Below are positions 14,120 to 63,884 of a DNA stretch of 64,000 nt, piece by piece (the first letter of the stretch is position 1; every line of letters starts with the position of its first letter). The stretch spans positions 1 through 64,000 of the forward strand of contig JBBHKE010001325.1 in assembly GCA_037447655.1 (NCBI GenBank), given 5' to 3'. Under the pieces are notes generated by a model that worked only from the letters and a program-made list of their open reading frames with translations, ran no database searches and was not told the origin of the DNA. Made by a program: the position numbers and the translations under genes. The DNA is from Zygnema cylindricum. Its lineage: Eukaryota; Streptophyta; Zygnematophyceae; Zygnematales; Zygnemataceae.

Positions 14120-15147
14120 TGGACCACAGAATACATGAAGCCTCTAGATAGTATTTAACTAACCCACTTTAAGCCACAACCACTGCTGCCCAAGAAGGCA
14201 AACTGACAATTTGACTGCACCCCTGTGTAGCCTGGACTCTCCTGAGTCCGTAGAAAAAAGAATCACTGAAAACGGCCAACCAGGCGATAAGTTATAGGGT
14301 GGCAAAGATGCCAATTTATACAAACTCTCTGAGAGAGAGGACTATCTACCTAAATTTTCCTAAGTCCTAGTTTTTCCTAATTCCCTCTCACAGCTCCTAT
14401 CTACTGCCTGTATGAACCAATCACAAAACTGTATAGTACTAGAAAGTACTACTGTCGATGTACTTTCTGTACGGCCTCTGTACGACAAGGCCATTAAGTG
14501 GACGCGTGTCCACTTTCCACTCGTCCGTACGTTCCTCGGAATTCCCGCGACCGAATGATGTCTTCCCACGTGGCGCCAAGTCATGCCACGTAACTAAATG
14601 CCAAAATGACCACTCCGGGATTTCGGCGATGATGTGCGCCGTTGGATTATATGCGAAACGTAATCTTGGCCGGAATAAATACTTGCGCGATATTTGTTCC
14701 GATGTAGAAATAAAATGCGTGGTATCCGTTTTGAATTAGCGTCGTACGACGTACTTTATAAAACTGTATATATGTACGCCGTAAACAGTTTTGGTTAAAT
14801 GAACTTTATCCTTTCGAACTAAATATATATCTATCACATACCATAGCACTTAGCACTGGTCCTAGTCTATTAGGATAAAGCTGACCGCTACCGGTCGATT
14901 TGACGAACCGCAGGTACCGGGATCAAATCTCTGGTCCGTCAAGTATATTTTTAGTAACCTACTAAAAATAGTTGTCTGTTGAACTAAGGCAGCCATGGAT
15001 CAACCTCTCTCTCTTTCCTTCAGTGACTACAGCAAGTATGGGGGCTAGAGAGCGGAGGTGGAGGCAGGCTGTCCGTCCTTTTCTTTTTCCTTTTATAAAA
15101 ACATATTTAAACCTAGAAAATACTCTAGAAATCTATAAATTTCAACA
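14100..15147 (-). repeat. 5' LTR of copia element 1, with promoter
   Basis: 1048 bp. On the minus strand U3 holds the ACGTGGC boxes near 14575, a GTAC-rich imperfect hairpin near 14433-14475, and a TATAAA box (14320-14315) roughly 200 nt upstream of the LTR end. The tRNA-like segment (about 14861-14944) is antisense to transcription. The gag start codon sits 20 nt before the end. Confidence 0.93.
14315..14320 (-). promoter_or_regulatory. TATA box of the copia element 1 LTR promoter
   Basis: TATAAA on the minus strand, directly downstream of a CTCTCAGAGAG-like palindromic stretch. The same TATAAA plus palindrome arrangement is found at the equivalent place in the other LTRs (for example 38271-38276), which supports it as the core promoter defining the U3/R border. 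Confidence 0.6.
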
Positions 15148-31147: not shown

Positions 31148-33665
31148 GTGAAAGGCATGGGAACAAGAATTGACGCTCATTAGGGAAGCTCGGCGTAGGA
31201 CAAGTGGGATTTTTAACGCGATGATTCCTCCTACCTCAAAGATAAGGCTGCATTTTGAAGCTCCAGTAGTGGGGACTTCTCCTCTCGCCAGTTCCCATAC
31301 TGGAATGCCTTTTTCAGAGCCAAACCAAGAGCCTCCCCTTCAGCGGAAAGGGAAGGAAAACACAAGACCTAATGTGGAGGGTTTGGGTGCAGATCTACCT
31401 TCTAAAAACACTTCGGCTCATTGGGAAGAGACCACCTTTGTCAAGGTGGAGGTGTCTACTGCTGTGGAGGCTTTAGTGGAGTTACGACCTAACGAGAGGA
31501 TTAACATCCCCTTGAGGGCTCCGACACCCCCTCTCACTTCTCCCAAAAAATCCCCGGAGCCCCCATTTTCTGCTCCTCCTCCTTATTCCTCTCACTCCTC
31601 CGAACACGTAACAGGTCTCGGGGATGTCCAGATCCCTCTCATTCGCCATCCGTTTCTCCTGCTGCAGCTGTCGTGGGTCGCTTGGTGCGCCTGTGTTGCC
31701 CTACAAATACGACGTACATGCCTATTCACCTCCTCACCGACGCTCTACTTCCTCCAGCTCCGGAACTTTCCCTCTGGAGACCTCAAGGAGGCGAACCAGG
31801 AGACAGACACCTTTCGCGGCAAGGGCTACGCTGTCTCCTTCTTAATCCCCTTCTCTGTTTGCGCCACCAGCCATTCCTCAAAGGCTTGGGAACAAGCCGC
31901 TTCTCCACATCCCATCGGAGGCAACCGTTCTCTGGGATCCACAATATTTTGCTAGATATATAGGAGTAGTGGGGGACATCCTACCTCCAACCATCTTTTC
32001 CGGCGCTGATACTTCCTCATTGGGAGGGGGATCCACACCACAGGGGGCCGCACCTTCCAGCAGGGAAGGATCCGGTTCCGATCTTGAGGAACAGGATACG
32101 AGAGTCATCTCGCCCGCTCAGTTTGTCTGTCCCACCGGGCCTTCCTCTTCCCATTTCACCAACTTTGAAGAGGAAGAAAAGGAAAGGGGGGGAATTTTGA
32201 TCTTTACCGAAGATAGCTCGAGAATTGCATTCTCACATTTTGAGTTATTGTGGAAATATTTCACCCAATTTGAGATAAATAAGTACCGGGGGGGGGCTAT
32301 TCCGTATGAATTCGTAACCACCCTCTTCCCCATGATGGTCAACTACCTGTCTGGAGGGGCGTTGGTAGATTACAAGGAGCGTCAACCTCTTTTGATGGCT
32401 CTTAGCATTAAAATCTCGGATCCAGCCCTTGATGCCGCTGTTTTGCAAGCGGAGGCTGACTTGGCCGCGGCTGCGGCGACCCCTGTGACTGCTACCTTTA
32501 CACAAGGCATGAAACTACAGGCGCAAGGAAGTGCCTATGTTAACCAGCTGCAGGCGATCCAGGAAGCCCAAGCAGCAACTCGCCTGGTTGGCAACCCAAA
32601 CCCTTGTACCACCCTGCTGAATATCTGGAGACTCCTCTACACAGAGAGGAACGAGTTCGCGATCAAGGAATTCACGGAATTCCGATGTTTGAAGAACGAG
32701 ACTCCCCAGACTCTTTTTAACCGACTCTCCATTCTTTGTCAAAAGACAAAGCTGTCCACGATTGATCTTTCGGCCATGGCCACAAAATATTTCATCGCCG
32801 TCCGTAATTCCTTCGGGCCGACAGGGCAGACTGCACTGGACAATTAGATTGCCGGAAAGGCAATTCAGGACATTAATCCCTCCGCGAAGGACATTTCTCT
32901 GGTGGCCATAAAGTTTGTATGACCATTTCGTCCATAGTGAGGCAAGGGAGAAGGCCGTGACTGGCAAGGCCCGAGCAAATTTGGCAAGATTCACCGGGGA
33001 GACCTCTTTGAATGCGGAGGAATAGGCTTAACTTCAAGCTCTTCGAAAGCTTAAAGGGAAGCAAGTGGCTGACAGCGGGTCAGAGCTAGCTATGAGAGCA
33101 GATGAGCGGGTATTTCTCTATAGTTGCCAGAATTGTCAACAATCGGGTCATTGGTGGAAGCATTGCACTAGAAAACTTAAACCAGAGCTGGCTTTGAAAC
33201 TTAAACAATGGGAGAAAGAACGCGCAGAAAAAACCTTGAAACAGAAAGAAAGGCTCAAGGAGGGGAGGGGAGAGGACGAGACACCGGTAACCAAAGAAAC
33301 TTACCGTCCAACTCCACGGAGCGAAACCTCTAAGATGTCCCAATATCAGTTGCGGCAAATCAAACTTCCCAAGTTTGATGACGCCCAAATCTCCAACGAA
33401 ATCCGGAGTAAATATACTACCGAGGGCGCCAAGTGCGAAGCTTGTGGATTTCTGGGCATAAAGAAGGGCAATGCTTTCGGAAAAATGGAATACCCAAGGA
33501 AATGATGCAGTTTGCTTTGTTTATTGGGGAAGGGGAAACCGTCGTTAACCCTCTACCCCTCTTACTCCTTTACCCGTGGGGGCGCCAACTTATGCCAACA
33601 CGAGAAAGACTTGAGCGAGTTCTGTCGAGCGTGCCTGGTTCACCCGAAAGAATAAAGCTTTTGGC
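31148..33665 (+). pseudogene. gypsy-type gag fragment, plus strand (inverted relative to the main gypsy copy)
   Basis: Decayed gag in at least three frames (31170-31955, 31969-32847, 33065-33505, 33433-33669). It matches the minus-strand gag at 47365-44617: both share WE-EL-LIR near the start, a Pro-rich region with RPNERI-IP, the central segment KFF/KYF-IAVRNSFGPTGQ, a zinc knuckle CQNCQQSGHWWKHC (33122-33165), and a C-terminal KLPKFDDAQIS. The tail IPKEMMQFALFIGEGE is also shared. Its first ~180 codons are missing at the LTR-C junction. It stops near 33665, tail to tail with the 3' end of the minus-strand gypsy pol. It would encode the nucleocapsid/capsid precursor. Confidence 0.85.
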
Positions 33666-34035
33666 GTAAATTGTCGGCCTGGAATCCTGTCAATAACCCC
33701 AGAATGCGGGTGCTTCCCATGACAGTGAAAATGTCCAGTTCTGCCCTCCCATGCCTCCGGGCGACGTGCATGCAAGGCATTGGAGATAATGCGACAAGAT
33801 GAGAAATGCAGGGTTGGGAAGAAGAAAAAGATGCCCCACTTCCCCTCCATTTTCCCCATATGACCGAGAAAGGGTGGCCGTAGAGGTCATCGGGCCGAAA
33901 TCCCAATTTTCCCCCCCTCTTAGTCAATCGGGACTAAGAATGAAATTGTTATCTGCTCAATTCGCAATTCCCGCTGAACAAGGTAATTGAGGGCTGAGGG
34001 CTTGGCTCCCAAGAGGGGGGAAGACATGAAGGATG
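33666..34035 (-). repeat. probable polypurine tract and partial 3' LTR of the gypsy-like element
   Basis: Downstream of the integrase end on the minus strand there is AAGAGGGGGGGAAAA (33921-33907), followed by TTGGGATTTCGGCCC. This fits a polypurine tract with an LTR starting TGGGATTTCGG at 33905. Only about 240 bp follow before the inverted gag piece at 33665. I find no matching 5' LTR at 47366, so the assignment is tentative. Confidence 0.35.
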
Positions 34036-37000
34036 CTAGCACTGGCTGCAGTGGTTACACACCAAAACGTGGTCTAGCTGGGAGGACAAATCACAGGATG
34101 AGGAGCAAGAGGGAGGATCGGCGAAATAAGTCAAGTGGAAGGTGCGTTTGTCCTCCAATCCTTGAAGATGGCAAGGGGCCACATTGACTTGGTTCTCTTT
34201 AATTCTTCGGCCATCCTTCCCTTCCAAAGTGAGAACACCCTTGTTAGAAACTTCCACCACTTTTAAGATTACTTGACCGGCAGCAATATCTAACGTATCC
34301 TTTTTTTGTTGCATCCTATATACAAAGTCACCAGGCATAAACCGCCGCTGTCTGGGCACATAATTCCCGCTCCGTCGTTGGGAATACCACAAGTGATCCA
34401 TGTGTTGAGATGACTGCAAATTTCCCATGGCCAGGGGTATCTCGCGGTGGAATACTTTAGCTCTTTGAGATATCAGTTTTTCGACAGTCCCCTGGTCATC
34501 CATTTCCGGAAAAACCACCGCCTGGGCCGAGGCCGCTCACGGAAGGATGGGATGTCGTCTAAAGAGGATGAAGTAAGGGCTGTAGGAGTGGAGGGAAGCT
34601 TATCGTCTGAACCTGTATCCCATGGCAATCCAAGGAACCCTTTGGTCGCACTCCCCCAGATCTTCTTCGACCGCATATTTCCGCAGTGACCGCTTCACTG
34701 TTTGGACGCACCTTTCGGCCAGTCCGTCGGCTTGTGGGTGGTCCTGACTAGTTAGCCGATGATCGATGAGGCATTTCTCCAAGAGGGTGGAAAATTCTCA
34801 GGCGAATTCAGAGCCTTGATCTGTCAAAACCTCTGCGGGCGCTCCGAATTGAGAGAACACTCTCTGCAAAAATGCATCTGCAATAGACTTGGACTCTTTC
34901 CGGGGCAAAACCACCAACTCTATCCATTTGGAAAAATGTTCGATCATGACAAGAACGAAGTGATTGCCCTTTCGATTGGTAGGCAAAGGCCCCAAGAGAT
35001 TCTAAGACCATCGGTAAAACATTCCCCGGATGGGCAAAGAATGCAGCTCAGTTCCACCCTTTTTGTCGAAGGCTGCTTTAACCCGATCGCAGGAGGTACA
35101 AGTCTGTACAATTCGGTTGACCTGAGCCCGTAGCGCATGCCACCAATAGGATCCAATGACCAGTGAAGTGGTCCGTTTTTGCTTGAAATGTCCACATTGC
35201 TGATGGAGACGGGTAATCAGCGTTTCTCGATCGGAGGGAGGAGGAACCACTTTCTTTGTCCCGTCCGCCCATTTGCGGAGGAGGATACCTTGGTCCCAGT
35301 CATAAGCCGCCATACGGGTTTGAACTCGGGACAATTGAAATCCGGACAAGTGAGGAAGAGGCGATCCTCGTTGTATGGATTGCACGGAATCGAGATCATT
35401 CCAGATATCCTTCCGCCCGGCTCCTATGGGTGCCTGTCCCTCCACGTCGGCTGAAAATGTGGACAGTTCCCCCCTAGATGGCGGAAGCCAAATAAAAGTG
35501 GAGGAGGCCCGATTTAATCCCAAACTGACCTCTGGATCCTCATCCTGTCTTGCTGTGGTAGAATCCAATGTGGAGGGGTCAAGGTTTCGGCTAAGTCCGT
35601 CGGCATTTCTATGGATTTCTCCAGCCCGATAGATAATACTGAAATCGTATTCCTGCAAGATAAGAACCCATTTGGCGAGTTTGCCGGTTAATTTGCTATT
35701 TTCCATGATCCATTTCAGAGGCTGATGGTCCGTAATCAAAGTGAAATGGATTCCGTATAAATATGGCCGGAAATGATGAATCGCCCAAACTGCGGCCAGA
35801 AGCTCCTCGTGGTAACTGCTATAATTTCCTTCGGCTCGGTTATTGCTTCGACTCGCAAAAGCCACTACATACTCTGCACCAGCATCATCCACCTGAGCTA
35901 AAACTGCCCCCAATCCAAACCTGCTCCAATGAGTGTAGAGGAGGAAAGGTCTTTAGTGATCGGGCATTCGGAGCACGGGGTGCTGCTTGAGTGCGTCCTT
36001 CACAAACTGGAAGGCGATTTGCTCCTCGGTGGCCCACAGCCATTCTTGGTCTTTTCGCAACAACTGGTTCAGAGGTTGGGCATGACTACTGAACTCGGGT
36101 ATGAACCTCCGGTAATAATTAGCCAGGCCAAGAAAGGTGCGTAGAGCTGATATATCTTGAGGTGGGGGAAGAGCGTCCAGAGGGGCCACCTTAACCATAT
36201 GGGGACCCACTGTCCCGGGGTGACTTCATGTCCAAGGTAAATGATTTTCTGGACACCGAAAATACCTTTACCCGAGTGGCATTTCAAACCCGTTGCTTGA
36301 AGTGCCCGAAGGACCATCTGGATATGTTCCAGGTGTTCTTCAAAAGTCTTGGAGAAAATAATCACATCATGGATATAGCACCTGGCACAATCAATTCCTC
36401 GGAGGGCTTCGTCCATCCCCCTTTGGAATTTGGCCGGCGCATTTTTCAACCCAAAGGGCATCTACATCCACTCGTATAACCGGCAACCTGCCCAAAATGT
36501 CGTTCTCTCCCGGTGCTTCGGTTCCATGGCAATTTGGTGAAACCCGTTCTTCATATCAAGAGTAGAGTAGATGGTGGCCCACGAGAGAGAGTCGAAAATC
36601 TCTTCTGGAGTTGGCACTAGATACCGGTCTGGAATGGTAGACGCATTGAGCATTCAGTAATCCCCACACATCCGGAAATCTACTGTCTTCCCGGAAGCAT
36701 CCTTCTTAGGAGGGAGAACGGTTGGGGAAGCGAACCCATGGAGTCCGGTGCTATCGTGAACCAGCCCAGCTTCTACCAAGGTCTGAACTTTGGCGGTGAT
36801 AAACTCTTTTTCTTTAAAACTGAGGGGGTACTGCTTCTGCCAAACAGTTGCCGTCTCATGTATCAGGTCAATTCGGAAAGGAGTTCCTTTATAAATGCCG
36901 ACATCTGTTTTTGACCAGGAAAATACCTGTTTGTTTTTTGCTAACAGCTCCGATAACTAAGCCTTTTGTTGAGGATCGAACTGCTCCCCCAGGTTCCAAT

Positions 37001-37258: not shown

Positions 37259-37336
37259 TTAAAGGTAACTGTTTTGCCGCTCTGGAGAGTGAAGACTTGA
37301 AAAGGCAAGGGCATGTTGGATCACCCATGTGATTGC
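37259..37336 (-). pseudogene. C-terminal tail of the retrotransposon methyltransferase (separated by insertion)
   Basis: On the minus strand the frame of methyltransferase motif X, cut at 41839, resumes here after the duplicated target GCAAT: TWVIQHALAFSSLHS, then about ten residues to a TAA at 37261-37259. A hydrophobic helix after the motif X block is the normal end of C5 methyltransferases. The same frame continues past the TAA for over 30 codons without a stop, which fits a larger Pol polyprotein. Confidence 0.8.
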
Positions 37337-38647
37337 TGTTGATATTTGGGTATTTTCTAGGTCTTTATTAGATAGAAAAGAGTAGAGGCAGTCTGCCCCT
37401 GACTCCCTTCTCCAAGCCCCCACACTTGTCGTAGTCACTGAAGGCTGGAAAGGGAGCTAGAGCCATGGCTGCCTAGGCTCTCCAGAGAGACAGGAATAGA
37501 TAATAAAGGTATGTTTACCAAAAAGGCAGTTGACGGACCCATAAATTGATCCTGGTACCTACCGTCGGTGAATCGTCCCATAGGAGTTAGCTTTGTCCAT
37601 TTAGTCTAGGACCAGAACTAGAATATATAGGGTTTGATAGATATTTATATAATTACAGGTAGGGAATTCCATTTAACTGGGTTACGGTCTATAGAACATA
37701 GAATGAGTTGTACTATTAGTACCGGACGAAACAAATAGTACGGACATTTGTTTCGACGGTTCGTATTTAATCTCTATATGAATCGGACGGCCGTGGTTAG
37801 CGCCGGTCTCGAGGAAAGGACAATTTGGCGGTTTGCGGACTCCGCCACTCCGGATGACACGTGGCAACAACGTACTGGATTACGGAATTTACGGAACGGC
37901 AGAAAACAAATCCGGAAGTGACAAATGTCGCACTATGGCGACATCGTACAATGTACGTACAGAAAGTACTCCGGCACTAGTACTTTCTTGTACGGTACCG
38001 TTTTCTGACGCGGCATGACCTGGCGCCACGTGGAGAGATAAGATTTGGAGGCAGGAATTCCGGAGAATACAAGAGCGAATCCAGATAGGACAATTGTTGA
38101 CTTTTGAGCCATGTCGTACGATGTCCGTACAGAAGGTACACCGGCATCTGTACCTTTATGTACTATACAGTAATGTGATTGGTCCGTACCTCAGTACTAG
38201 AGGGTTTAGAGAGGGGTTTAGAACTTAGAATATTTTTGGTAGGTAGCTGCCTCTCCCAGAGAGCACCTTGTATAAATGTCAAACTTTGGCCAGCCATAAC
38301 TATCAATTCAATTGACCAAATTCAGTGATTCTTGTTGCTGCGGACTCAAAGGAGTCCACGCTACACAGGGGTGTAGTCGGTCAGAGTTTTTTGCCTGCCT
38401 GGGTGGCTGCATTTCTAAGGGAAAGTCAAAGTGGGGAATGTTATCCTATACTCATATTCTAACTTTGCATTCTGTAGTGAAACTGAGCACACAGAGAGTC
38501 TTACTTCACAGGGGTGAAGCTGTAATGGGGTTCTGATTGTCAAGGGGTCAATCATTTAGGTTTATATTAACTTGGAGTCGGCACTATCTAGATTAGCTTC
38601 CTTTGGACTTGCGAATTCTGTGTGGCAACGGAGCCCATAGAATTTCA
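37337..38647 (+). repeat. 5' LTR of gag-only element copy 2
   Basis: TGTTGATATTTGGG to GAATTTCA. Contains the antisense tRNA-like segment (about 37536-37615), two ACGTGG boxes (37857-37864 and 38027-38033), a GTACAGAAAGTACT...AGTACTTTCTTGTAC hairpin (37957-37995) and TATAAAT (38271-38277). The start codon seen in the 3' LTR (ATG) is ACG here (38628-38630). Confidence 0.93.
38271..38277 (+). promoter_or_regulatory. TATA box of the gag-only element LTR promoter
   Basis: TATAAAT after the palindromic CTCTCCCAGAGAG stretch, about 375 nt before the LTR end. The position is equivalent to the TATAAA at 14320-14315 in copia element 1. Confidence 0.6.
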
Positions 38648-38662
38648 GGTTATGGGCCCACC
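38648..38662 (+). promoter_or_regulatory. primer binding site of gag-only element copy 2
   Basis: GGTTATGGGCCCACC directly after the LTR end TTTCA. It contains the first usable ATG of this copy's gag (38652-38654), because the upstream LTR start codon is mutated to ACG. Confidence 0.78.
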
Positions 38663-40508
38663 ATCTAGGGTGCCTATGTTTGATGGAACAGACTTCACTT
38701 ATTGGGAGTTTACGATGGAGGGATTACTTTTCGAAAAGCACTTGTGGGGAATTGTTTCGGGACAAGTGAGGTGTCCGCCACCGGGCTTTGGAGGAGATCA
38801 CTATGGAGAATCATCTGGGGCTGCCCAGAAAACCAACCGGAGTTCAAGTGCAACGGAAGGTGAAGGGAAGATCATTACCGTGGAAGGGGAAATAGGGGAG
38901 AAGGATAAAGGGACACCTATGGTGAGGGGAGCTAGGCTCTCGCCTACGGTTCCACTTGTGGGGGTTATAACTGAACCAAAAACTGAAGAAAATGATAGTA
39001 AAATTTGGGAATATAAAAACACTATAGCAAAACATCTCATACTTAGATATGTGTCTAAGTCTATAGCTATCACTCTTTTAAATCTAACCAAGTCGTCAGA
39101 AATTTGGGACACACTAATTCAGATTTATAAGAGTGAGACTATACAGAGGCAGCAGTTAGTAAGACAAGAGATAGAGGCCTATGTTTATAAAGGCGGTAGC
39201 ATGATAGAGTTTTGCAATGATATTGCTGGGTTATATGTTGAGCTTGCTAGTACGGGATATGTAGAATCTGAGGAGAGAAAGATTAATACACTAATCATAA
39301 AGCTTCCATATGAGTACGAAGACATCATTTACCGTATGCAGGGAATGGATGTCTCCTCGTGGACTTGGAGCATTACCATGGGAATAATTCTTGTGAGAGA
39401 AAGCACTTTGGAGCTTCGTAGGGGAAGTGAAAGGGTGACTGCATTTACAGCTGGTGGTGACTGGCGGAAGCGTGATGTGAGGAACGGCGGTGACGAGCGG
39501 AAGCGTGATGAAAGGAAGAAGGACAAAGGTAAACCTTATCGGAACTTCGGTGGAAAGAGAGGGAGAGGAAAAGAAAGGGGAACTTTGAAAAAGGGGGTTT
39601 GCTTCCCTTGTAGGAAACCGGGTCACTATATGGAGGAGTGTCCTCGTTTGGAAGAACTTAGAAGTTGGAGTGTGAATGAAGAGGAAGAAGGGGAAGAGGA
39701 GAAAGAGGATGAAAAAATCTTGGAGCTTCTTCACATCGGTAGAATGGAGAAGAGAGAAAAGTACACAGAAATTCCACGAAGGCAACAGTGTGCTTTTGGA
39801 GGTATAAGGGAAGTAAAGAGAGAGGAGGTACTTGAGGATGTGGAGGAGTGTAAAGTGTATGACTTAGAAATGAGAAAGTCAGAACTAGGATCAATAAGTG
39901 AAAACGGGAAAAATAAAATTAATGAGGATAATTTTATAGGTAGTTTGGAATTAGAAAACTGGTCGGAAAGGGAGACTTCAACGGATTACGAGGAAAGGGG
40001 AGAAGTGAAACTAGAAGGGGTTTTAAAGGATAAGGGAGAAGAGGAATATTTAATGAAAGGTTTAGGGGAGGATAAATATTTATTGGGAATAAATTTAGAA
40101 AGTGAGAGTGGAAAGAAATCCATGGGAGAGAGTGAGGAAAGTTCATGTTTTGGGGGTAATGGGTTTGACATCACTAAAGGGAGTGATGACATTTATGAAG
40201 GTGTGCCTGTAAAAGGGTTAGCCTCAGGATGTGTGTTGCAGATTGGAGATGGGGCTGGCTGTTTGAATTGCAAGAGGGAAATCGGATTTAGTGTGGATGG
40301 AAAAGAGGTGAGGTGGATAAAAACTTTGCTCGGATTTATAATAAGTGGGATGCTAAATGAAATGTGTGATGCAATTATTATTTCATTTCATCTAATGCAT
40401 TGTTTTAAATACGAGAGCATATTTCTTAAGTTATATAAAAGGAAAAAGAAAAGAAAAAGGAAAAAGGGGAGGGAGTGTTTTTTGTTTGTAATAGTTGAAA
40501 GGAAGTAG
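38652..40508 (+). CDS. Gag-plus-Pol-relic protein of gag-only element copy 2 (about 619-628 aa)
   Basis: The frame is open from GTG 38622, but the normal start (ATG three codons in) is ACG, so the first ATG is in the PBS (38652). Same plan as 19030-20847: Gag domain, basic RKRD repeats, zinc knuckle CFPCRKPGHYMEEC, then QQCAFGGIRE and Pol scraps EECKVYDL, KGLGEDKYLLGI and FDITKGSDD. Unlike copy 1 it keeps the frame further, with KEVRWIKTLLGFIISG and MCDAIIISFHLMHCFKY, which align with the RNase H end (KELMWVKSLL, FCDNQAAIAIAANPKHHFKA) after losing the catalytic residues. It ends in a lysine-rich tail. The deletion boundaries partly differ from copy 1, so decay continued after the two lineages split, always in frame. 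Confidence 0.88.
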   Translation: MGPPSRVPMFDGTDFTYWEFTMEGLLFEKHLWGIVSGQVRCPPPGFGGDHYGESSGAAQKTNRSSSATEGEGKIITVEGEIGEKDKGTPMVRGARLSPTVPLVGVITEPKTEENDSKIWEYKNTIAKHLILRYVSKSIAITLLNLTKSSEIWDTLIQIYKSETIQRQQLVRQEIEAYVYKGGSMIEFCNDIAGLYVELASTGYVESEERKINTLIIKLPYEYEDIIYRMQGMDVSSWTWSITMGIILVRESTLELRRGSERVTAFTAGGDWRKRDVRNGGDERKRDERKKDKGKPYRNFGGKRGRGKERGTLKKGVCFPCRKPGHYMEECPRLEELRSWSVNEEEEGEEEKEDEKILELLHIGRMEKREKYTEIPRRQQCAFGGIREVKREEVLEDVEECKVYDLEMRKSELGSISENGKNKINEDNFIGSLELENWSERETSTDYEERGEVKLEGVLKDKGEEEYLMKGLGEDKYLLGINLESESGKKSMGESEESSCFGGNGFDITKGSDDIYEGVPVKGLASGCVLQIGDGAGCLNCKREIGFSVDGKEVRWIKTLLGFIISGMLNEMCDAIIISFHLMHCFKYESIFLKLYKRKKKRKRKKGRECFLFVIVERK

Positions 40509-40526
40509 ACTAGAAAATAAGGAGAG

Positions 40527-41838
40527 TGTTGATATTTGGGTATTTTCTAGGTCTTTATTAGATAGAAAAGAGTAGAGGCAGTCTGCCCCTGACTCCCTTC
40601 TCCAAGCCCCCACACTTGTCGTAGTCACTGAAGGTTGGAAAGGGAGCTAGAGCCATGGCTGCCTAGGCTCCCCAGAGAGACAGGAATAGATAATAAAGGT
40701 ATGTTTACCAAAAAGGCAGTTGACGGACCCAAAAATTGATCCTGGTACCTACCGTCGGTGAATCGTCCCATAGGAGTTAGCTTTGTCCATTTAGTCTAGG
40801 ACCAGAACTAGAATATATAGGGTTTGATAGATATTTATATAATTACAGGTAGGGAATTCCATTTAACTGGGTTACGGTCTATAGAACATAGAATCAGTTG
40901 TACTATTAGTACCGGACGAAACAAATAGTACGGACATTTGTTTCGACGGTTCGTATTTAATCTCTATATGAATCGGACGGCCGTGGTTAGCGCCGGTCTC
41001 GAGGAAAGGACAATTTGGCGGTTTGCGGACTCCGCCACTCCGGATGACACGTGGCAACAACGTACTGGATTACGGAATTTACGGAACGGCAGAAAACAAA
41101 TCCGGAAGTGACAAATGTCGCACTATGGCGACATCGTACAATGTACGTACAGAAAGTACTCTGGCACTAGTACTTTCTTGTACGGTACCGTTTTCTGACG
41201 CGGCATGACCTGGCGCCACGTGGAGAGATAAGATTTGGAGGCAGGAATTCCGGAGAATACAAGAGCGAATCCAGATAGGACAATTGTTGATTTTTTAAGC
41301 CATGTCGTACGATGTCCGTACAAAAGGTACACCGGCATCTGTACCTTTATGTACTATACAGTAATGTGATTGGTCCGTACCTCAGTACTAGAGGGTTTAG
41401 AGAGGGGTTTAGAACTTAGAATATTTTTGGTAGGTAGCTGCCTCTCCCAGAGAGAACCTTGTATAAATGTCAAACTTTGGCCAGCCATAACTATCAATTC
41501 AGTTGACCAAATTCAGTGATTCTTGTTGCTGCGAACTCAAAGGAGTCCACGCTACACAGGGGTGTAGTCGGTCAGAGTTTTTTGCCTGCCTGGGTGGCTG
41601 CATTTCTAAGGGAAAGTCAAAGTGGGGAATGTTATCCTATACTCATATTCTAACTTTGCATTCTGTAGTGAAACTGAGCACACAGAGAGTCTTACTTCAC
41701 AGGGGTGAAGCTGTAATGGGGTTCTGATTGTCAAGGGGTCAATCATTTAGGTTTATATTAACTTGGAGTCGGCACTATCTAGATTAGCTTCCTTTGGACC
41801 TGCGAATTGTGTGTGGCAATGGAGCCCATAGAATTTCA
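40527..41838 (+). repeat. 3' LTR of gag-only element copy 2
   Basis: TGTTGATATTTGGG to GAATTTCA, 1312 bp, preceded by the purine tract and followed by the duplicated ATTGC. It retains the LTR-borne start codon ATGGAGCCC (41819-41827). The antisense tRNA-like segment is at about 40726-40805. Confidence 0.94.
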
Positions 41839-42973
41839 ATTGCGTTTAAGTCCATGCTTTGTCCGATTAGGCTGCATCTTTGTAGTTCCGAAATACCTGG
41901 TGCAGCTGTGGTGTCTGGGTAGAATCCCATGGCTTGCTCCCTTTCTTTAATGGTTGGGGTTGTCCATGTTTTTGTGGTACTGTCAAATATCATTCCGGCT
42001 GCCCCTTTCCTATACGCATGGCTGTTGGGAAAGGAGACCAAGGTCGGAAGAGTTCTGCGGGGTAATCGTAGTTTGTTGCATTTGAAGAAGGGAGGGCGAT
42101 CAGTTTTGGTGACGGGTGTGGCCATTCGCCCCTTTTTCAGGATTTGTTGTACCGTATTGTTGTGATCTGGAATCTGCTTGTCCAAGAGCTGTCTGAGGAT
42201 GGGAAGTGGGATTAACTTGGTCTTATAAGCCATTACTAGGTGTTCCGAGATCCCATCTGTGCCGTGTCGAAAACCAACGGCATTCCTAAAATTTGGGTGA
42301 CATGTTTCCAAGTGTCCGCTACATGTTGTCGTCGATCATCCCTCGGGTGGACATTTTCCAAAACATACCCCACTGACGTGTCTTGAGGCTGTTCTATCAA
42401 TGATATTACTTGTATCATCTTAAAGAAAGTCCTACTTCTTCGGTCTGCATGTCCCTTTCCTTGTCCGGCTAGAGAGTATCCTTGACAAGGCCATCCTGTT
42501 ACAATCAAATCTACTCTTCCCAGACTGGCGAAGTGTGGGGTCATGATGTTTTCCACATTTTGAGGTAAGCTTCGGTGAGCTTGGGAGATTGCCAACACTG
42601 GGAGTTGTTGAGGATAGAGTTGGTGTAGTTGGTGAAGGCAATGCTCGTTGACGGCTCGAGCTTCAGGTGATATTTCCACTGCCGTATACGCCTCTATTAC
42701 GTATCCTGCTTTCAAAACCGCTTCTAAATCAGTGTTGATTCCTGAAAATAATGATACAATCCGGAGCGCGAGAGCTGGGATGGTCAGTGCCACCACTTGT
42801 CGGTTGAACTTCCCATCTTGGGACTGCATTTCCAAAGATTCTGACCGAAGAGTTGAAAGGATCTCATTTGGTGCTATAGTTGTAAAAGCCTGTTTTACTC
42901 CCCGCCGAAGTGCTGCTATCTGAAATAGTCGGGCTTGGTATCCCTCTTCCCACCGCTTGGAAATAGAGATTTG
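41839..42973 (-). pseudogene. C5 cytosine DNA methyltransferase domain of a gypsy-like retrotransposon
   Basis: Would transfer a methyl group from S-adenosylmethionine to cytosine C5 in DNA. Numbering from Met at 42835: motif I VSLFSGI (27-33), motif II-like AVEISPEAR (52-60), motif IV GWPCQGYSLAG with catalytic Cys117 (codon 42487-42485), motif VI YVLENV (157-162, Glu160), motif VIII MGSR (194-197). The frame is lost at about 42240 (stops, then a shift) inside or just before the target-recognition region. Another frame (42311 down) carries YKTKLIPLP, motif IX TIKEREQAMGF and motif X LIGQSMDLNA up to 41839, where the gag-only element is inserted; the tail is at 37336-37259. The motifs are in canonical order, so not the permuted DRM type. 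Upstream, 42973-42836 is open in the protease frame after a single TAG. Which methyltransferase class it belongs to needs phylogeny. Confidence 0.92.
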
Positions 42974-44052
42974 CTATATTTCGTTGGCAATATCTGGTGA
43001 GCAGGCAAAAAGTTCAGTCAGAGAGGATGTGGAATATACGGGGTAACAGGTGGACACAGGCGCATTTATCTTTCCCCTGCTCCATAATCCTAAAGGCACC
43101 ACCACCTGGGTCCCTTGAGGCTCCTCGGGGTCCCTCACCGTGAATTGCTCCTTCCACACACTCAACTCCATATTCAGTCGGGTCCAAGTTGCCATCCCCA
43201 GCAGAATCTTGAACTGCTTCCCTTCCACCACTAGAAAGGGGAGTTGGATCCGGAATCGTTGACCAGCATCATCTGAGAATTCAATTTCCATAGCTTTGAT
43301 GATTCCATGGACCGGTTGACTTTCGTTGCTAACTATACTCAGGCAGATATCGCTTGGTGAAATTTTTGGCCGTGATTCCTCAAGCATCTGCTGTAAAGCA
43401 GAAGTTGTTATTAAATTTGGAAGCGCACCGATATCAACCACGGCATCCTGATAGCCCCTGTATCCGTTGAGCTTGAAATTTCCGGTCCGATTGAGGATGA
43501 GAGCCACCGATAAGGCTTTGTAATCCCTATCCATCATAGGGGTCTTGGGTTCGGCGGATAGAAAAACGGAACTGGATTGATCTGTCGGTTCTACCTTCTC
43601 CTGTCCCAAGTGAATTTCCTCTCCCAATGCCTGAATAAGGATATCTTCTGATAGATTGTGTGATGAGGCGAGAGTTTTGACATGTGTAAAGGCGTAGGGC
43701 ATTAAGTGACGGACTAACATAGCAGCTGGTTTGGAGGAAGGAGGCACGGCCTTAGGGGAGGAAATGGGGTGATTCTCCTCTGTTTTCTGCTCCTCTTGCT
43801 CCCCCCCCCTGCTTCCTCGATTTCGGTATCCGAGCCTGGCGTGGGAGGAGTTGCTGGTGTTTCATCCTCAGGGCGTTCAGCCATGTACCGTTCGAACCTG
43901 TCCTGGGTTTTCCGCTTCTCTTCCTCTTTAGCGTTTTTCTCTGTCTCCCTTTGTTTGTCAGACTTGTATTTTTCGAATTCGGGCGGCATTTTCTTCATAG
44001 CTTGTGGGGGAGGGTTTGTAGGTTCTATTCCTAGGGCGGTGTCATTGTTCAA
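42974..44052 (-). pseudogene. gypsy-like aspartic protease region (with charged N-terminal linker)
   Basis: 43747-42974 encodes a retropepsin-like domain. AVVDIGALPNLITTSALQQ fits the D-(S/T)-G-A active site with Ile in place of Ser/Thr. A C-terminal FKILLGMATWTRLNMEL resembles the ILLGMDWL segment of gypsy proteases. It would cleave Gag-Pol. Upstream 44052-43714, in another frame, encodes a Lys/Glu-rich linker (EKYKSDKQRETEKNAKEEEKR is its core region) and a Pro-rich part, with a poly-C run at 43801-43808 near the frame change. The protease frame ends in a TAG directly followed in frame by the methyltransferase leader, so Pro and MTase were probably one polyprotein. Confidence 0.82.
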
Positions 44053-47000
44053 TATTACCTCCCGGGGGTTGAATGACTATGGTCCCGTGGTCTTTCTCTT
44101 ATGATCTCCCGGGGCTAGTCCTTGTCTGTCCCTCCTTTGCTCCGATGTTGTGTGACGGAGTTGTCTGCGCTTATCCCCCACCCCCACATTCCAGGCTCTT
44201 GAATGAAAAGTCTAGGCATGGTTAACTCTTCGGGGTGTCATGTCCCATCCCATAATGTCGTCATCATCTCCAGTCGCCGTGGCTTCCTGTTCAAGCTCCG
44301 CTAGCTTTTGTCATAGCTCTTGTTTTTTTCGTTGGAGTTTCTGAGCAGGCGTGAAAGCAGCCGAACGGTAGGGAGAATTGAAACGTAAGGCCGCTAATTT
44401 TGAAGCCATCGCGGCCAATTAGTGGCTTTGATGTTGAATTATCTCTTCCGGGGTACGGGTTGCTCGACTTGCCGGTGTTCTTTCGGGTTCCTCCATTGTG
44501 CGGCGTGCACAGGGGTAAAGGAGCTGAAGAGGGAGAGAATTCAAGGCGGCTTCCCCTTCACCGATAAACAAGGCATATTGCATCATCTCCTTTGGCACCC
44601 CATTCTTTCGGAAACACTACCCTTCCTTGTGGCCAATAAAACGGCATGCCTCCCATTTGGAACCCTCGGTAGTATATTTGCTCTGTAATTCAGTAGAAAT
44701 ATTGGCGTCATCGAATTTAGGAAGTTTGATTAGTCTCAACAGGGATTCAGACATTTTGGAGGTTTCAGACCGGGGAGTTGGGCGGTAATCATCCTTTGTT
44801 ACTGGAGTTTTGTCCTCCGATCCCCCTCCTTGTTTCCTTGCGTTTTGCTTCTGTGTTCTTTCGGCCCTTTCTTTTTCCCATTCCTTCTGTTTTAGAGCGA
44901 GTTCCGGTTTTAGTTTCTGCGGGCACCGTTTCCACCCGTGGCCGTTCTCCTGACAATTCAGACAATTATACAAAATCATCCTTTCATTCGCCCCCATGGC
45001 AGGTTCTGATCCGCTATCAGGTGCCTGTTTGCCCTTAAGCTTCCGCAAAGCTTGGAGTTCATCCTGCTCTTCTCTGCTCAAAGCGGTTTGGCCGGCAAAC
45101 CCGGCGAAATTTGCTCAGGCTTTTCCTGTGACCGCCTTTTCCCTAGCCTCACTGTTGACGAAGTGGTCGTACAGTTTCATGGGTGCCAGGGAAATTTCTT
45201 TAGCCGAGGGGTTAATGTCTTGGATTGCCTGGCCTGCGATCCAGTTATCTAGAGCAGCCTGTCCTGTGGGTCCAAATGAATTTCGGACAGCAATAAAATA
45301 TTTTGTTGCCATGGCTCGAAGATCACATGTTGACAGCTTCGTTTTCTGGCAAAGACTGGAGAGCCTATTGAAAAGGATCTGAGGCGTCTCATTATTTAAG
45401 CTGTGGAAGTCCGTGAATTCCTTGATGGCGGACTCATTCCTCTCAGTATACAACAGTCTCTAGGCGTCGAGGAGTGTTGTGCAAGGAGTGGGGTTGGCGA
45501 TCATTCGAGTGGCAGCTCGGGGTGCCTGAATAGCTTGCAGTTGGTTAACGTTGGCTCGACCTTGGGCCTCAAGCTTCATGTTTTCGGTAAAGACGGGAGA
45601 AACAGGAGCGGCTGCTGCTGCAGCCAAATCGGCTTCTGCTTGTAAAACTGCTGCATCGAGAGTCGGATCAGATATTTTGATGTTAGGAGCCATTAAAAGA
45701 TGTTGCCGTTCCTTATAATCCGCCAAGGCACCCCTTGAGAGATAGTTGACCATCATGGGGAAGAGGGTAGTCTCGAAGTCATCAGGAATAACCCCTCCCG
45801 ATATTTGTTGATTTCGGACTGAGTGAAAGATTTCCACAACAGTTCAAAATCTGAGAAGGCAATTCCGGAATTATCTCCCGTAAATATTTGGTTGTCCCCC
45901 ATTTCTTTCTCCTCCTCCGTGAGATTAGTGAATTGTGGTGAGTGAGGTCTAGTGGGACTGACAAACTGTGCGGGAGAAATCACCCCTTGCTGTTCGTTTT
46001 CGGATCCTGTATCACCTACTTCCCCGTTGGAAGTAGCCGCTTGTGAAATGGCCACTCTCCCCCCCACGGAGGAAGTGCCTGGTTCTGACAAGAAGGTTGA
46101 GGGGTAAATGTCTCCCCCTAGTGACGCTTCTGTTCCATGAGGTGCGGAAGGTCTTCTTGATCGCCTACTTCATTTTTCCGGTGGGATTTCAAGATCCGGT
46201 CGGTTTGGAGGTGTTCCCTTGGATGACGAAGAAGACGCGGATGGCGAAGGACTGTGCTTGGGATATGGGGTATGCCCCCTTGTCGTGCGCTCAGCAAGAG
46301 AAGAAGGGAGTGGTTCAGAAATGGGTGATGGTGAACGCCGGTGAGGTGGTGAATAAGTGGGAATGGAAGTTTTTGGTCGCACAACAGTTACGAGTGATTC
46401 AACTGTCAACCAGGGTACTCTTATGGGAACGTCTTTGGGATCTGCTGCGGGACCCGGAACTGGAAAGGAAGTGAGCAGAGGAGAAGAGGATGTTAGATCA
46501 AGATTTTGCCCGTGAGACGGCGAAGGAGGAGTAGCTGGTCTGAAAGGGATGTGGACCCTTTCGTTTGGTCGTAATTCCACCTAAGCCTCCACGGCGGAGG
46601 CGATCTCCACAGATACAAAGGTAGGATTCTCCCGAGGGACAGGAGCGAACTCAGAATGTAAATCTGCACCCAAACCCTTTTCATTAGGTCCTGTTGTTCC
46701 TCCCTCTCCGCGCTGAAGAGAATGTTCTGGAGACTTTTGAGATGGAGTCTCCTTAGGGTGGATTTTGTGAACTTGAGCGACTTCCTTTGTTGGCTCCTAG
46801 ATGTAGGGATTGAGTATACGAGACGTGGAGATCTGCTCCATAAGAAGTCCTCCGGACCTAAGCCATGCGTCCCTTATCAGACGTAGTTCATATTCCCATA
46901 CTTTCTTTCTTTCTTCCTCTTAAGCCTCCCAATCTATTTCGAGAGGTCCGGCCCCCGTCGTGGCCCCATTTTGAGATCTCAACATTTTTACCAATTCCTG

Positions 47001-47365
47001 AGCACTGCTTAAGACCCCAGTTAGATCTCCCACCTCTACCCTTGGAACCTCGGGATCTGTAGGTTTGGTTTGCCATAGCCCCCCTAAAGGGTGATCTGTG
47101 GGATCCTTGGGAAAGGATCTCCCCCGATCTACATCAAGAACCTCGGAATCGGTGGGTTTAGATTGCCAAAGCTCCACAGGAGGTGAGCCCTTTAGGACTG
47201 AGGAGGTAGGCCCTTCTGTCGAGGTGGGAGCTGGTGGTGGAAATGTTTCCTCCTAGTTCATAGGAGCAAATCTACCTTTACTATCCCGGTGGTCAAATCG
47301 CTTCCCCTTTGAAGGATCTGGGAAATCCTCCCTGCTGCCCCCTTCTTTGAGATCATATATTCTAT
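44053..47365 (-). pseudogene. gypsy-like gag, minus strand, decayed
   Basis: Pieces 47177-46920, 46580-46170, 46091-45753, 45837-45460, 45453-45115 and 45081-44617 share one gag with 31148-33665. Order: N-terminal Pro/Thr-rich region with duplicated KPTDxEV motifs (LWQSKPTDSEV, LWQTKPTDPEV), WEYELRLIRDAW, RPNERVHIPF, central KYFIAVRNSFGPTGQAALDNWIAG, zinc knuckle CLNCQENGHGWKRC (44975-44930), and KLPKFDDANIS. The product is the capsid/nucleocapsid precursor. Broken by stops near 46920, 46600 and 45460 and by frameshifts. Its 5' end is joined at 47366 to a copia integrase with no LTR or PBS between. 44053-44616 is the degraded link to the protease. Confidence 0.85.
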
Positions 47366-58387: not shown

Positions 58388-59780
58388 ATCAGTATATAAA
58401 AAAGAGTCTTTAGACGCCTTTGTGGAAAGCCTTATATAGGCGGTGTGTCTGTCAAGGATTTTTTCTGTCCGAGGTACGGAAGGCCGTACCGTTGGCACGA
58501 TGTAGCATTGTCGCCCGTCGCTGTGCAAACCGCTGTACCGCTGGCATAATTCCACGCTGCCGCCCGCCGGTTGGTGTAATGCTACGTTGCCGTCGCTGGC
58601 GTAATTCTACGATGCCGGCCGTTGGCGTAATTTTACGCTGTCGGCTGTTGGCGTAATTCTACGCTGCCGCCCGCCAGCTGGCAGTTTTCTACGCTGCAGG
58701 CCGCTGGCTTGATTCTATGCTGCCGCCGGCTGGCGTACTTTTACGCTGCCGGCCGCTGGCGTATTTTTACGCTGCCGCCAGCTGGCGTAATTTTACGTTG
58801 CCGGCCGCTAGCGTAATTCTACGCTGCCGGCTGTTGGCGTAATTCTACGCTACACCGTGAATCGCTATTAGCGTAATGAAATAGATAGCGTAATGAAACA
58901 ATTAGCGTACTTTACGGTAAATTGTGTTTTTTCGGGTACACCATGATACTAATTTATCATGTACTCTAATTTGTAAACTGCTTTGTAAAAATTTTCAGCA
59001 CATAATATGTCCACACTAAAACATGTATATGTACGAAACTGTTCAAATCGTACGCCGTCGCGTTTTTTTGACATCTGCGTATGCCGGAAAATATTTACGC
59101 AATTATATATTATTATATTTTCTGTACTTTTAAATTTAAAAATGTACGAAATAGTACAGATCTGGCAGTCCGTACACCACACTATTTAAAAGAGAACTAA
59201 ATTACAGTTATGAACCGCATTGAGCGGGGTACCTCAAATAACGTGCAAAAACATTTAGCGTACTTTATTCTATTTGAGAATTTGCCCCAAAAAAAGGGGT
59301 ACCCCAATTAGCGTCATGTACGCTAATAGCGATTCACGGTGTACCGCCTGCCAGCTAGCAGTTTTCTACGCTGCCGGCCGCTGGCGTGATTTTACGCTGC
59401 CGCCGGCTGGCGTGATTCTACGCTGCCGCCGGCTGGCGTAATTCTACGCTGCCGCCCGCCAGCTGGCTGTTTTCTACGCTGCCAGCCGCTAGCGTGATTT
59501 TACGTAATATATTTTTGCCAGCGTCGCATTATAGAGCGCCGAACGGATGGCGTAATATAAAATTGCCAACCGTCGATGTGCAAATCGCCGTACGGCAAGC
59601 ATATTGTTACGCTGACAGCCGTCGGTGTACAGACTGTCGTACGGCTGGCGTAATGTTACACTGACAACCGTCCGTGTACAGACGCCGTAAAATACTTTAA
59701 GCTGATCATATCACCCTATGGTTTTGTTCCCATGAAGAGTGTATTACTACTGTTAAGAGAAAAAATACAAAATTAAAAGT
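58388..59780. repeat. GC-rich repeat element, copy 1 (interrupted by a MITE)
   Basis: Starts ATCAGTATATAAAAAAGAG, then a segment with GCCTTATATAGGCGGTGTG, then an array of about 26-30-bp units (58550-58850 and 59344-59510) built on GGCGTAATTCTACGCTGCCG, then a unique tail ending GAGAAAAAATACAAAATTAAAAGT. Without the MITE (58853-59341 plus one TA) it is about 902 bp. A second direct copy is at 62989-63884. Short ORFs in it are by-products of the repeat units. Confidence 0.75.
58853..59341. mobile_element. TA-flanked MITE, 489 bp, inside the GC-rich repeat
   Basis: Termini CACCGTGAATCGCTATTAGCG and CGCTAATAGCGATTCACGGTG are exact inverse copies. TA at 58851-58852 and 59342-59343 is the duplicated target. 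The other copy of the host repeat, near 63425, has no insert at the corresponding place (ACGCTGCCGCCTGCC), which confirms both ends. Same family as 2191-2396, 2409-2950 and 62390-62948. Probably Tc1/mariner-type. Confidence 0.88.
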
Positions 59781-61172: not shown

Positions 61173-61952
61173 CTAAAATGGTACTTGTGCTTCGGCTGCG
61201 TCTGCGACAATCGGCAATCGAGGCGTCTTTCCGAGAAGACAGGATCCCACTCCAAAAACAAAACAAGAAAACAAATATATAAACACTGTATTGTACACCA
61301 AAATAATAAAATCCAATCCTATACCGCCGCCACCTGGCGAAATCAGCCGCTCCACGAGCGACGGAAGAATCATCAAAATATCTAAAATGACAGCTTGCAT
61401 GCAGTTATATCTCACATACCGAGGCAGGTTCTGGTTTTGAATAACTCCTATGTATAAAGCGAAAAAAGCGATAAAACCGGCGTACGGAAAACCGTTATAA
61501 GCTTTAATGAGAGGACCGAGAGGCTGAAAGAGAAGATAAGCGGAAGGAAATTGGAGGAATAAAAATCGGCCGTATCGGAAGCCATCCAATAAAGGAAGAA
61601 AGTAGCCAATGGAGGCGATGATTCGCTGAGGAGCCGTAACGGAATCATCGGAACCGCGAGCATAGATAGGGAGGGAAGAGCGGCGAGAGGGAGGGGAGGG
61701 AGAGTGTTGACGGACGACAGGGAGAGGAGGGAGGAAGAGGGAGGGGAGAGAGAGGGAGCGAGGGCAGGAGGAAGAGGAGGAGGAGGGACGAGAGAGGGAA
61801 AGGCATCGAGGGGAGACGAGAGAGGAAAAAGGAGAGGAGGTCGGGCGGGAGAAGGAGAGGGAAGAAGAGGATGAGGAGCGAGAGGGTGAAGGTGAGGAGA
61901 GGGAGAGGGAAGAGCAGTGGAGACCAGGGGAGAGAGAGGCGAGAGACGCCAT
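61173..61952 (-). CDS. TIC20: Tic20-II/Tic20-V-like chloroplast inner-envelope protein
   Basis: 259 residues, one uninterrupted exon. Tic20-family proteins are four-helix membrane proteins linked to the protein-import translocon of the chloroplast inner envelope (also related to cyanobacterial/plastid Ycf60). Residues 1-97 are Ser/Pro/Arg/Leu-rich with almost no acidic residues (MASLASLSPG start), as expected of a plastid transit peptide though unusually repetitive. The mature part begins about residue 98 with RIIASIGYFLPLLDG. Helices lie roughly at 110-122, 154-172, 183-203 and 213-240. Family marks: YGRFLFLQFP, YVRYNCMQAVILDI (179-192), SCLLGKTPRLPIVADAA (237-253). The closest match from memory is the Tic20-II/V branch, not Tic20-I/IV. 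The start Met suits the transit peptide. Neighbours are repeats only, so no operon-like context. Confidence 0.88.
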   Translation of the reverse strand: MASLASLSPGLHCSSLSLSSPSPSRSSSSSSLSFSRPTSSPFSSLVSPRCLSLSRPSSSSSSCPRSLSLPSLFLPPLPVVRQHSPSPPSRRSSLPIYARGSDDSVTAPQRIIASIGYFLPLLDGFRYGRFLFLQFPSAYLLFQPLGPLIKAYNGFPYAGFIAFFALYIGVIQNQNLPRYVRYNCMQAVILDILMILPSLVERLISPGGGGIGLDFIILVYNTVFIYLFSCFVFGVGSCLLGKTPRLPIVADAAEAQVPF

Positions 61953-62389
61953 GGCAGCGTTGAAGATATTCCAGTGTAGCTAAAAAAGAATCTGAATGGC
62001 AAAGGAAACTTGAGAGGGGAAGAGAATTGCAGTGCAAGTTCACGTGATGTGAAAATGACAGCCATTCACAGAAAAGTACAGTACGGAGATGTTGCGTTGT
62101 TTCAGGTTGATGTATATGTTTGGCAAGGGGCCTAGGAGTGATGTGTTGTACTTTTCTGGGAAGGATCGCCGATGCGTTTATGCCTTCAAGGGACGATGTG
62201 ATGTCGTTCGAGGAATAATGATGAATCACGATTGTGGGTTATGGTTTGTGATTGTTGTATGTTACAGTAGCAGGTGTGAATGTACGTGGCATAATTATTG
62301 CAAAGATAAGCAGATCTGTGGGTATAAATGTGATGTAGAGACATAAGAGATGTCGTATGTTAAATTGTGATAGGAGGTACATTACAGTA
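61953..62389. other. 5' flank of the Tic20-like gene
   Basis: Presumed promoter and 5' UTR on the minus strand. I see no confident TATA box. ORFs on either strand here are overlaps with the gene's Ser-rich region or short chance frames. Confidence 0.35.
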
Positions 62390-62988: not shown

Positions 62989-63884
62989 ATCAGTATATAA
63001 ATAAGAGTCTTTCAGACGCCTTTGTGGAAAGCCTTATATAGGCGGTGTGTCTGTCAAGGATTTTTTCTGTCCGAGGTACGGAAGGCCGTACGGTTGGCAC
63101 GATGTAGCATTGTCGCCCGTCGCTGTGCAAACCGCTGTACCGCTGGCATAATTCCACGTTGCCGCCCGCCGGTTGGCGTAATGCTACGCTGCCGTCGCTG
63201 GCATAATTCTACGCTGTCGGCTGTTGGCGTAATTCTACGCTGCCGCCCGCCAGCTGGCAGTTTTCTACGCTGCCGGCCGCTGGCTTGATTCTATGCTGCC
63301 GCCGGCTGGCGTAATTTTACGCTGCCGGCCGCTGGCGTATTTCTACGCTGCCGCCGGCTGGCGTAATTTTACGCTGCCGGCCGCTAGCGTAATTCTACGC
63401 TGCCGGTTGTTGGCGTAATTCTACGCTGCCGCCTGCCAGCTGGCAGTTTTCTATGCTGGCGGCCGCTGGCGTGATTCTACGTTGCCGCCGCTGGGTAATT
63501 TAGCTGCCGCCCGCCAGCTGGCAGTTTTCTACGCTGCCAGCCGCTAGCGTGATTTTACGTAATATATTTTTGCCAGCGTCGCATTATAGAGCGCCGAACG
63601 GATGGCGTAATATAAAATTGCCAACCGTCGCAGTGCAAATCGCCGTACGGTGGGCGTAATGTTACATTGCCAACCGTCGATGTGCAAATCGCCGTACGGC
63701 AAGCATATTGTTACGCTGACAGCCGTCGGTGTACAGACTGCCGTACGGCTGGCGTAATGTTACTCTGACAACCGTCCGTGTACAGACGTCGTAAAATACT
63801 TTAAGCTGATCATATCACCCTATGGTTTTGTTCCCATGAAGAGTGTATTACTACTGTCAAGAGAAAAAATACAAAATTAAAAGT
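62989..63884. repeat. GC-rich repeat element, copy 2 (uninterrupted)
   Basis: Direct copy of 58388-59780 without the MITE: same AT-rich start (ATCAGTATATAAATAAGAG), GCCTTATATAGGCGG segment, array of GGCGTAATTCTACGCTGCCG-type units (63130-63510), and identical-looking tail to AAATACAAAATTAAAAGT. Length about 896 bp. The two copies flank the Tic20-like gene 3.2 kb apart. Confidence 0.78.

Follow-up and report, generated by a model that had tools for sequence, protein, structure and literature searches.

A decayed Ty3/gypsy element of Zygnema cylindricum, probably one of a large family with a DNMT3-type methyltransferase in Pol

The window analysed here, 64,000 nucleotides of the zygnematophycean alga Zygnema cylindricum (assembly GCA_037447655.1, contig JBBHKE010001325.1, positions 1 to 64,000), holds on its minus strand, from about 47081 to about 33900, a Ty3/gypsy element in which gag, protease, a cytosine-5 methyltransferase (MTase), reverse transcriptase (RT), RNase H, integrase and a decayed PHD finger follow one another. 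The order from gag to integrase, already given in a preliminary description that was made from the sequence alone, is borne out by Pfam domains (scan of the window with an E cut-off of 0.001) and by the public protein P0002 (1458 residues), whose protease, MTase and RT align with the window in the same order (tblastn E 1e-84 and 1e-70). The same description had assigned 37259-42973 to an MTase-bearing element; the MTase does lie there, but 37337-41838 belongs to a nested copia-type element, and the gypsy element extends beyond the span on both sides.

The gag region (44502-47081, on the minus strand like all parts of the element named below) includes a CCHC-type knuckle, CLNCQENGHGWKRC, in the open reading frame (ORF) 44620-45114; its stretch 44967-44569 is matched by the gag of P0002, and the 5' part of another copy from the same genome matches the window at 47081-46837 and 46720-46660. 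The protease ORF (42977-43861), for which a Pfam match at the 0.001 cut-off was not found, is in the same frame as the MTase, and residues 507-1033 of P0002 match 43816-42248 across both. A single TAG codon (42974-42976, in the context TAG CAA ATC) separates the two and is a probable readthrough site. The N-terminal part of the MTase (42239-42973; PF00145, E 4e-9, passing the cut-off) contains motif I, motif IV (GWPCQG) and motif VI (ENV), while the C-terminal part with motifs IX and X (41839-42335) is in another frame and shows 46% identity to P0002 over 42254-41829. Six motifs had been listed for this enzyme; I, IV and VI stand, IX and X stand in the second frame, and a frameshift in the window copy interrupts motif VIII. 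The second frame spans 41784-42335, but resembles the family only down to 41839, its final residues being derived from a copia long terminal repeat (LTR). The end of the MTase, ITWVIQHALAFSS, lies past the nested insertion at 37260-37336. RT follows in three pieces (36072-36956; PF00078, E 3e-12 in the third piece; 52% identity to P0002 over 37025-36345), then RNase H and the integrase zinc domain (35005-35952; PF17917, E 4e-34, and PF17921, E 1.5e-13) and the integrase core and C-terminus (33961-34941), with the decayed PHD finger at about 34072-33961. This last part was recognized by tblastn against L031, a copy in the same genome, to which the last 327 amino acids of the window element are 83% identical when several internal stops are read through.

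The nested element (37337-41838, plus strand, 4.5 kb) is foreign to the gypsy element. Its LTRs (37337-38647 and 40527-41838) are 98.9% identical, its gag ORF lies at 38592-40508 (PF14223), and the target duplication ATTGC stands at 37332-37336 and 41839-41843. Reading across the flanks as an empty site gives GQSMDLNAITWVIQHALAFSS, which resembles the family end in the MTases P0002-P0004; the copia-type element is inserted within the MTase of the gypsy element.

Whether the MTase belongs to the element is answered by its other copies in the genome (352.8 Mb, 2689 contigs). The PF00145 profile found at least 123 places, a lower bound as 123 of 782 first-look candidates were scored, and the 20 best of these were taken as a sample; protease lies upstream of the MTase in 18 (exceptions L032 and L035), and in 16 an RT follows the MTase on its strand, weakly in L028 (34 bits). 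L032 looks like a host CMT-type exon, to judge by a motif and not by a family search; together with the TIC20-like gene of the window it indicates a host of the plant lineage. A second sample was chosen without regard to the MTase, by searching with the RT piece of the window (150 of 1297 candidates scored) and taking every seventh place between ranks 2 and 135, which gave 20 of the 150; one place, C2458, is common to both samples. An MTase lies upstream of RT in 18 of these 20 RT-sampled copies (with a weak match of 39 bits in L055) and a protease was found in 14; the two copies without MTase, L060 and L062, are also without protease. Since 18 of 20 copies sampled by RT carry it, the MTase is integral to the element, and that it is element-borne and conserved is close to certain. 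The preliminary description had allowed that all other copies might lack the enzyme, which they do not, and it had described this copy as broken and others as perhaps intact, in keeping with the open frames of L040 (2395 codons) and L031 (1520 codons).

One might suspect a separate gene or an insert of bacterial origin that came by chance to sit between remnants of protease and RT, as plasmid and phage MTases match the N-terminal piece (27-31% identity for the best five listed of each) and six phage records contain places 60-80% identical to part of it. That reading was rejected and is practically excluded: besides the RT-sampled copies, it is contradicted by the colinear public proteins, P0002 among them, and by a family profile that is nearer to DNMT3 than to bacterial enzymes. 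The window copy probably represents, in decayed form, a large Ty3/gypsy family that bears a DNMT3-type MTase as a regular Pol domain.

The type of the enzyme was approached with a profile built from the three MTases P0002-P0004, of which the best 60 of 67 rows were considered. The chains of DNMT3A, DNMT3B and DNMT3C are matched with E 1e-23 to 6e-18, followed by 4onj ('DNA methyltransferase', presumably a tobacco DRM) with 1e-12, DRM2 with 3.5e-9, HaeIII with 1e-7, HhaI with 2.5e-5 and Dnmt2 with 1.4e-4. DNMT3C is the top Protein Data Bank sequence match of the N-terminal part in the window, and all 50 Foldseek matches listed for the predicted fold of the window piece, the best 50 of 90 with E ≤0.001, are DNMT3. 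With DNMT3 nearest among solved C5 MTases and the motifs unpermuted, the enzyme is very probably of DNMT3 type; weighing against this, the fold model is of low confidence (pLDDT, the predicted local distance difference test, 59, from an alignment of four sequences). A piece of DNMT3A searched against the own genome gave at least 150 places (150 of 513 candidates scored) with 29-42% identity, none of them clearly a host DNMT3, although introns could hide one.

Could the domain be catalytically dead and only structural? In a motif alignment of 53 rows with sufficient coverage (the window included, some rows close relatives, partial rows and P0040 dropped) the catalytic cysteine is kept in 51 and the E-N of motif VI in all 53. 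The two rows without the cysteine, the own-genome copy L052 and the Marchantia model P0026, are what would speak for a dead domain. Constraint speaks against it. Ratios of nonsynonymous to synonymous divergence (dN/dS) were calculated pairwise after Nei and Gojobori for 15 loci with an unbroken MTase match, 14 from the own genome and L017 on contig CADCWO010000201.1, and for 12 loci in the case of RT. The MTase medians are 0.25 (18 pairs) at dS 0.05-0.2, 0.10 (2 pairs) at 0.2-0.6 and 0.13 (4 pairs) at 0.6-1.5; those of RT in the same bands are 0.19 (7 pairs), 0.12 (7) and 0.05 (2), and the protease with 0.39 (49 pairs, dS 0.05-0.2) lies somewhat above both. Judged by these ratios the MTase is under purifying selection, and a dead domain is very improbable. 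On the other side of the balance, the median of two close MTase pairs (dS <0.05) is 1.17, and 76 MTase pairs are saturated, short or zero.

The TAG between protease and MTase recurs in lineage A, the copies that are like the window. It stands at the junction in 13 of the 14 loci taken that have both protease and MTase, or 14 of 15 counting the window, and in 12 of the 13 the next codon is CAA, L034 having TAA there. In L042 an in-frame TAG was not found at the junction, with TAGCAA nearby but out of frame. Among the RT-sampled loci, TAGCAATT occurs in 14 of 20, against an expectation, from letter-shuffled sequence, of about 1 of 20, and directly adjoins the protease match in nine of these 14; L061 has TAA at the junction. 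In some plant viruses, CAA after a UAG makes the stop leaky. L017 has TAG CAA TCA at a different place, at the boundary of the MTase and RT ORFs, which share one frame, and the frame of L031 opens right after its TAG.

As the TAG is common to 14 of 15 lineage-A copies, readthrough rather than damage is suggested, and that the codon is read through appears likely from its distribution. An inherited lesion, in which case reinitiation or a spliced RNA would supply MTase-Pol, would fit with the open frame across this position in P0002 and in L030, L040 and L041, three loci of lineage B that also weigh against a general readthrough; in the lineage-B locus L029, protease and MTase are in different frames. 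A lesion is nevertheless improbable, as copies share the TAG and its context while the sequence downstream is under purifying selection, and as long open frames begin immediately after the codon; with the TAG at the same place across lineage A, the lesion was set aside.

The ends of the family are best seen in L040, in which a first repeat A is followed by the ORF, a repeat B, and second copies of A and B. The two A copies do not differ in 931 bp, and the two B copies are 99.6% identical over 243 columns, so that the insertion is probably recent. L040 ends in TGTC and GACA with TTGG on both sides, a 4-bp target duplication in this one copy, and its joined flanks give an open reading like an RNase H end. 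In lineage A, B-A-B was found at the 3' side of L027, L038 and L039 (in L033 the second B is cut by the end of the sequence taken) and L031 has repeat A on its 5' side; in the window copy, repeat A was not found, and a faint match to the integrase-end and B region was the only trace. The order protease, RT, RNase H, integrase with Ty3-type domains is that of Ty3/gypsy elements, but instead of two simple flanking LTRs there is the A-coding-B-A-B arrangement, complete in L040 and partial in lineage A, which is DIRS-like. DIRS elements proper have a tyrosine recombinase and no target duplication, whereas this family has an rve integrase and, in L040, the TTGG flanks. L017 and L040, but not L031, carry a C-terminal PHD match above the Pfam threshold, and five of the public relatives (P0033 and P0036-P0039) have a precomputed PHD annotation.

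A homolog search with the MTase of L017, in which scoring covered the 7992 candidates that had the most words in common with the query, retrieved at least 37 proteins, among them five from Marchantia polymorpha (P0024, P0025, P0026, P0028 and P0030), one from Calypogeia fissa (P0022) and one with a gapped MTase match from Closterium sp. NIES-53 (P0040). Among the proteins that homolog searches retrieved, none was labelled Klebsormidium. A 245-amino-acid MTase piece as query found none, probably because candidates were limited to proteins of similar length. Custom profiles recognize protease and MTase in both P0024 and P0026, with the beginning of RT also in P0026; P0033 and P0039 have another domain order, with the MTase after RT and before integrase and PHD. 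P0033, P0036, P0038 and P0039, all with the MTase before integrase and PHD, have PEC or FEC in motif IV, not PCQ. L017 itself is a eukaryotic-looking retroelement filed under a cyanobacterial ('Synechococcales') metagenome-assembled genome, probably a contamination.

In the MTase tree, 30 retroelement rows are set apart from DNMT3A and DNMT3C, the cellular rows included, and the window row falls with lineage A of its own genome (98/96); a single DNMT3 capture for the retroelement rows is possible. The RT tree (14 rows, 13 of them different) shows the same main groups; P0002 fits less well, as it joins lineage A there while the MTase tree keeps it separate, though weakly supported (89/77). We tentatively consider that one ancient capture of a DNMT3 founded a long-lived streptophyte Ty3 group, which would combine a writer with a PHD reader, set the dose of the enzyme by UAG readthrough and span Klebsormidium (from published data), Closterium, liverworts and the present genome; as a joint claim this falls a little short of probable.

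Elsewhere in the window, a gag fragment of a second, inverted family member lies at 31338-33586 on the plus strand (32104-33586 is 72.6% identical to 45983-44502). An open copia-type pol ORF of 1271 codons with a CpG ratio of 0.32 is present at 10331-14143 on the minus strand, with several related copia elements in the window. Copies of one repeat family lie at 58388-58851, 59344-59780 and 62989-63884, and a host gene at 61176-61979 on the minus strand encodes a TIC20-like chloroplast import protein (PF16166, E 7e-36).

Hosts silence transposons by cytosine methylation. An element that keeps a methyltransferase of its own under selection suggests that methylation can also serve the parasite. 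The conserved TAG CAA would be read through by a fraction of ribosomes; because the MTase would thus be made together with Pol, it could enter the particle with RT and there methylate the double-stranded cDNA just synthesized, at the latest when it integrates, and by this a new copy would arrive already marked like host DNA, while the PHD finger may help to choose chromatin or the integration site. Methylation of the cDNA is the most likely main role that the sequences suggest, although in absolute terms we hold it with less than even confidence. CpG depletion as a trace of self-methylation lends no support: over fixed 5-kb stretches the MTase loci have CpG ratios of 0.52-0.96 (lineage A 0.52-0.82), as compared with 0.32 in the copia ORF without an MTase. 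It also counts against this role that methylation by the MTase of KnitGypsy-Dnmt3, an element of Klebsormidium nitens published in 2018, was not seen in yeast, a result which its authors call inconclusive (PMC5890265). The absence of visible DNA activity in that enzyme would fit with an action on RNA, either genomic RNA or primer tRNA, which the same authors raise for a form in a long interspersed nuclear element (PMC5890265); as the family MTases are nearest to DNMT3 and far from the tRNA enzyme Dnmt2, an RNA target is rather unlikely. An action on host chromatin, restraining the element or tuning its silencing, is not very likely either; the PHD finger at the integrase end could tether the enzyme to chromatin, and self-restraint is discussed in PMC5890265, but a Pol-linked enzyme would be expected mainly in particles.

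Compared with cellular DNMT3A, DNMT3B and DNMT3C, the best sequence and fold match, the family shares the motif order and an AHRxR-type motif VIII; it differs in that its motif IV is mostly PCQ and not PCN, in that its MTase is part of a retroelement polyprotein, and in that PWWP or ADD domains were not found in Pfam scans of six family proteins. The in-frame UAG between gag and pol parts is shared with gammaretroviruses such as murine leukaemia virus, in which gag-pol is made by UAG readthrough (PMC5009743); here, however, the stop comes after the protease, with the MTase beginning right behind it, and readthrough is predicted from the sequence. SymbioDIRS-Dnmt3 of Symbiodinium likewise has a Dnmt3 in a retroelement Pol and A-coding-B-A-B repeats, but a tyrosine recombinase, by its published description, in place of the rve integrase and 4-bp target duplication found here (PMC5890265). 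In titles and abstract openings of the literature, weak evidence as few subscription papers, figures or supplements are covered, there was no report of liverwort copies, the PHD finger or the TAG, and in the main text of PMC5890265 the words 'PHD' and 'readthrough' are absent and 'stop codon' occurs once, for premature stops. The preliminary description had mentioned a report of MTase-bearing retrotransposons, and this is that paper. Because KnitGypsy-Dnmt3 has been published with DIRS-like repeats, the MTase-bearing gypsy element is already known as a kind since 2018 (PMC5890265): that element is described as combining Gypsy domains with a DIRS 'structure of repeats', and as having an LTR Gypsy Pol with a divergent Dnmt3, no introns, several copies and purifying selection, all of which resembles the present family. 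What the Zygnema family adds to it is that, because it is abundant, has long open copies and has related proteins in Marchantia, a tractable land plant, the self-methylation idea of 2018 becomes testable.

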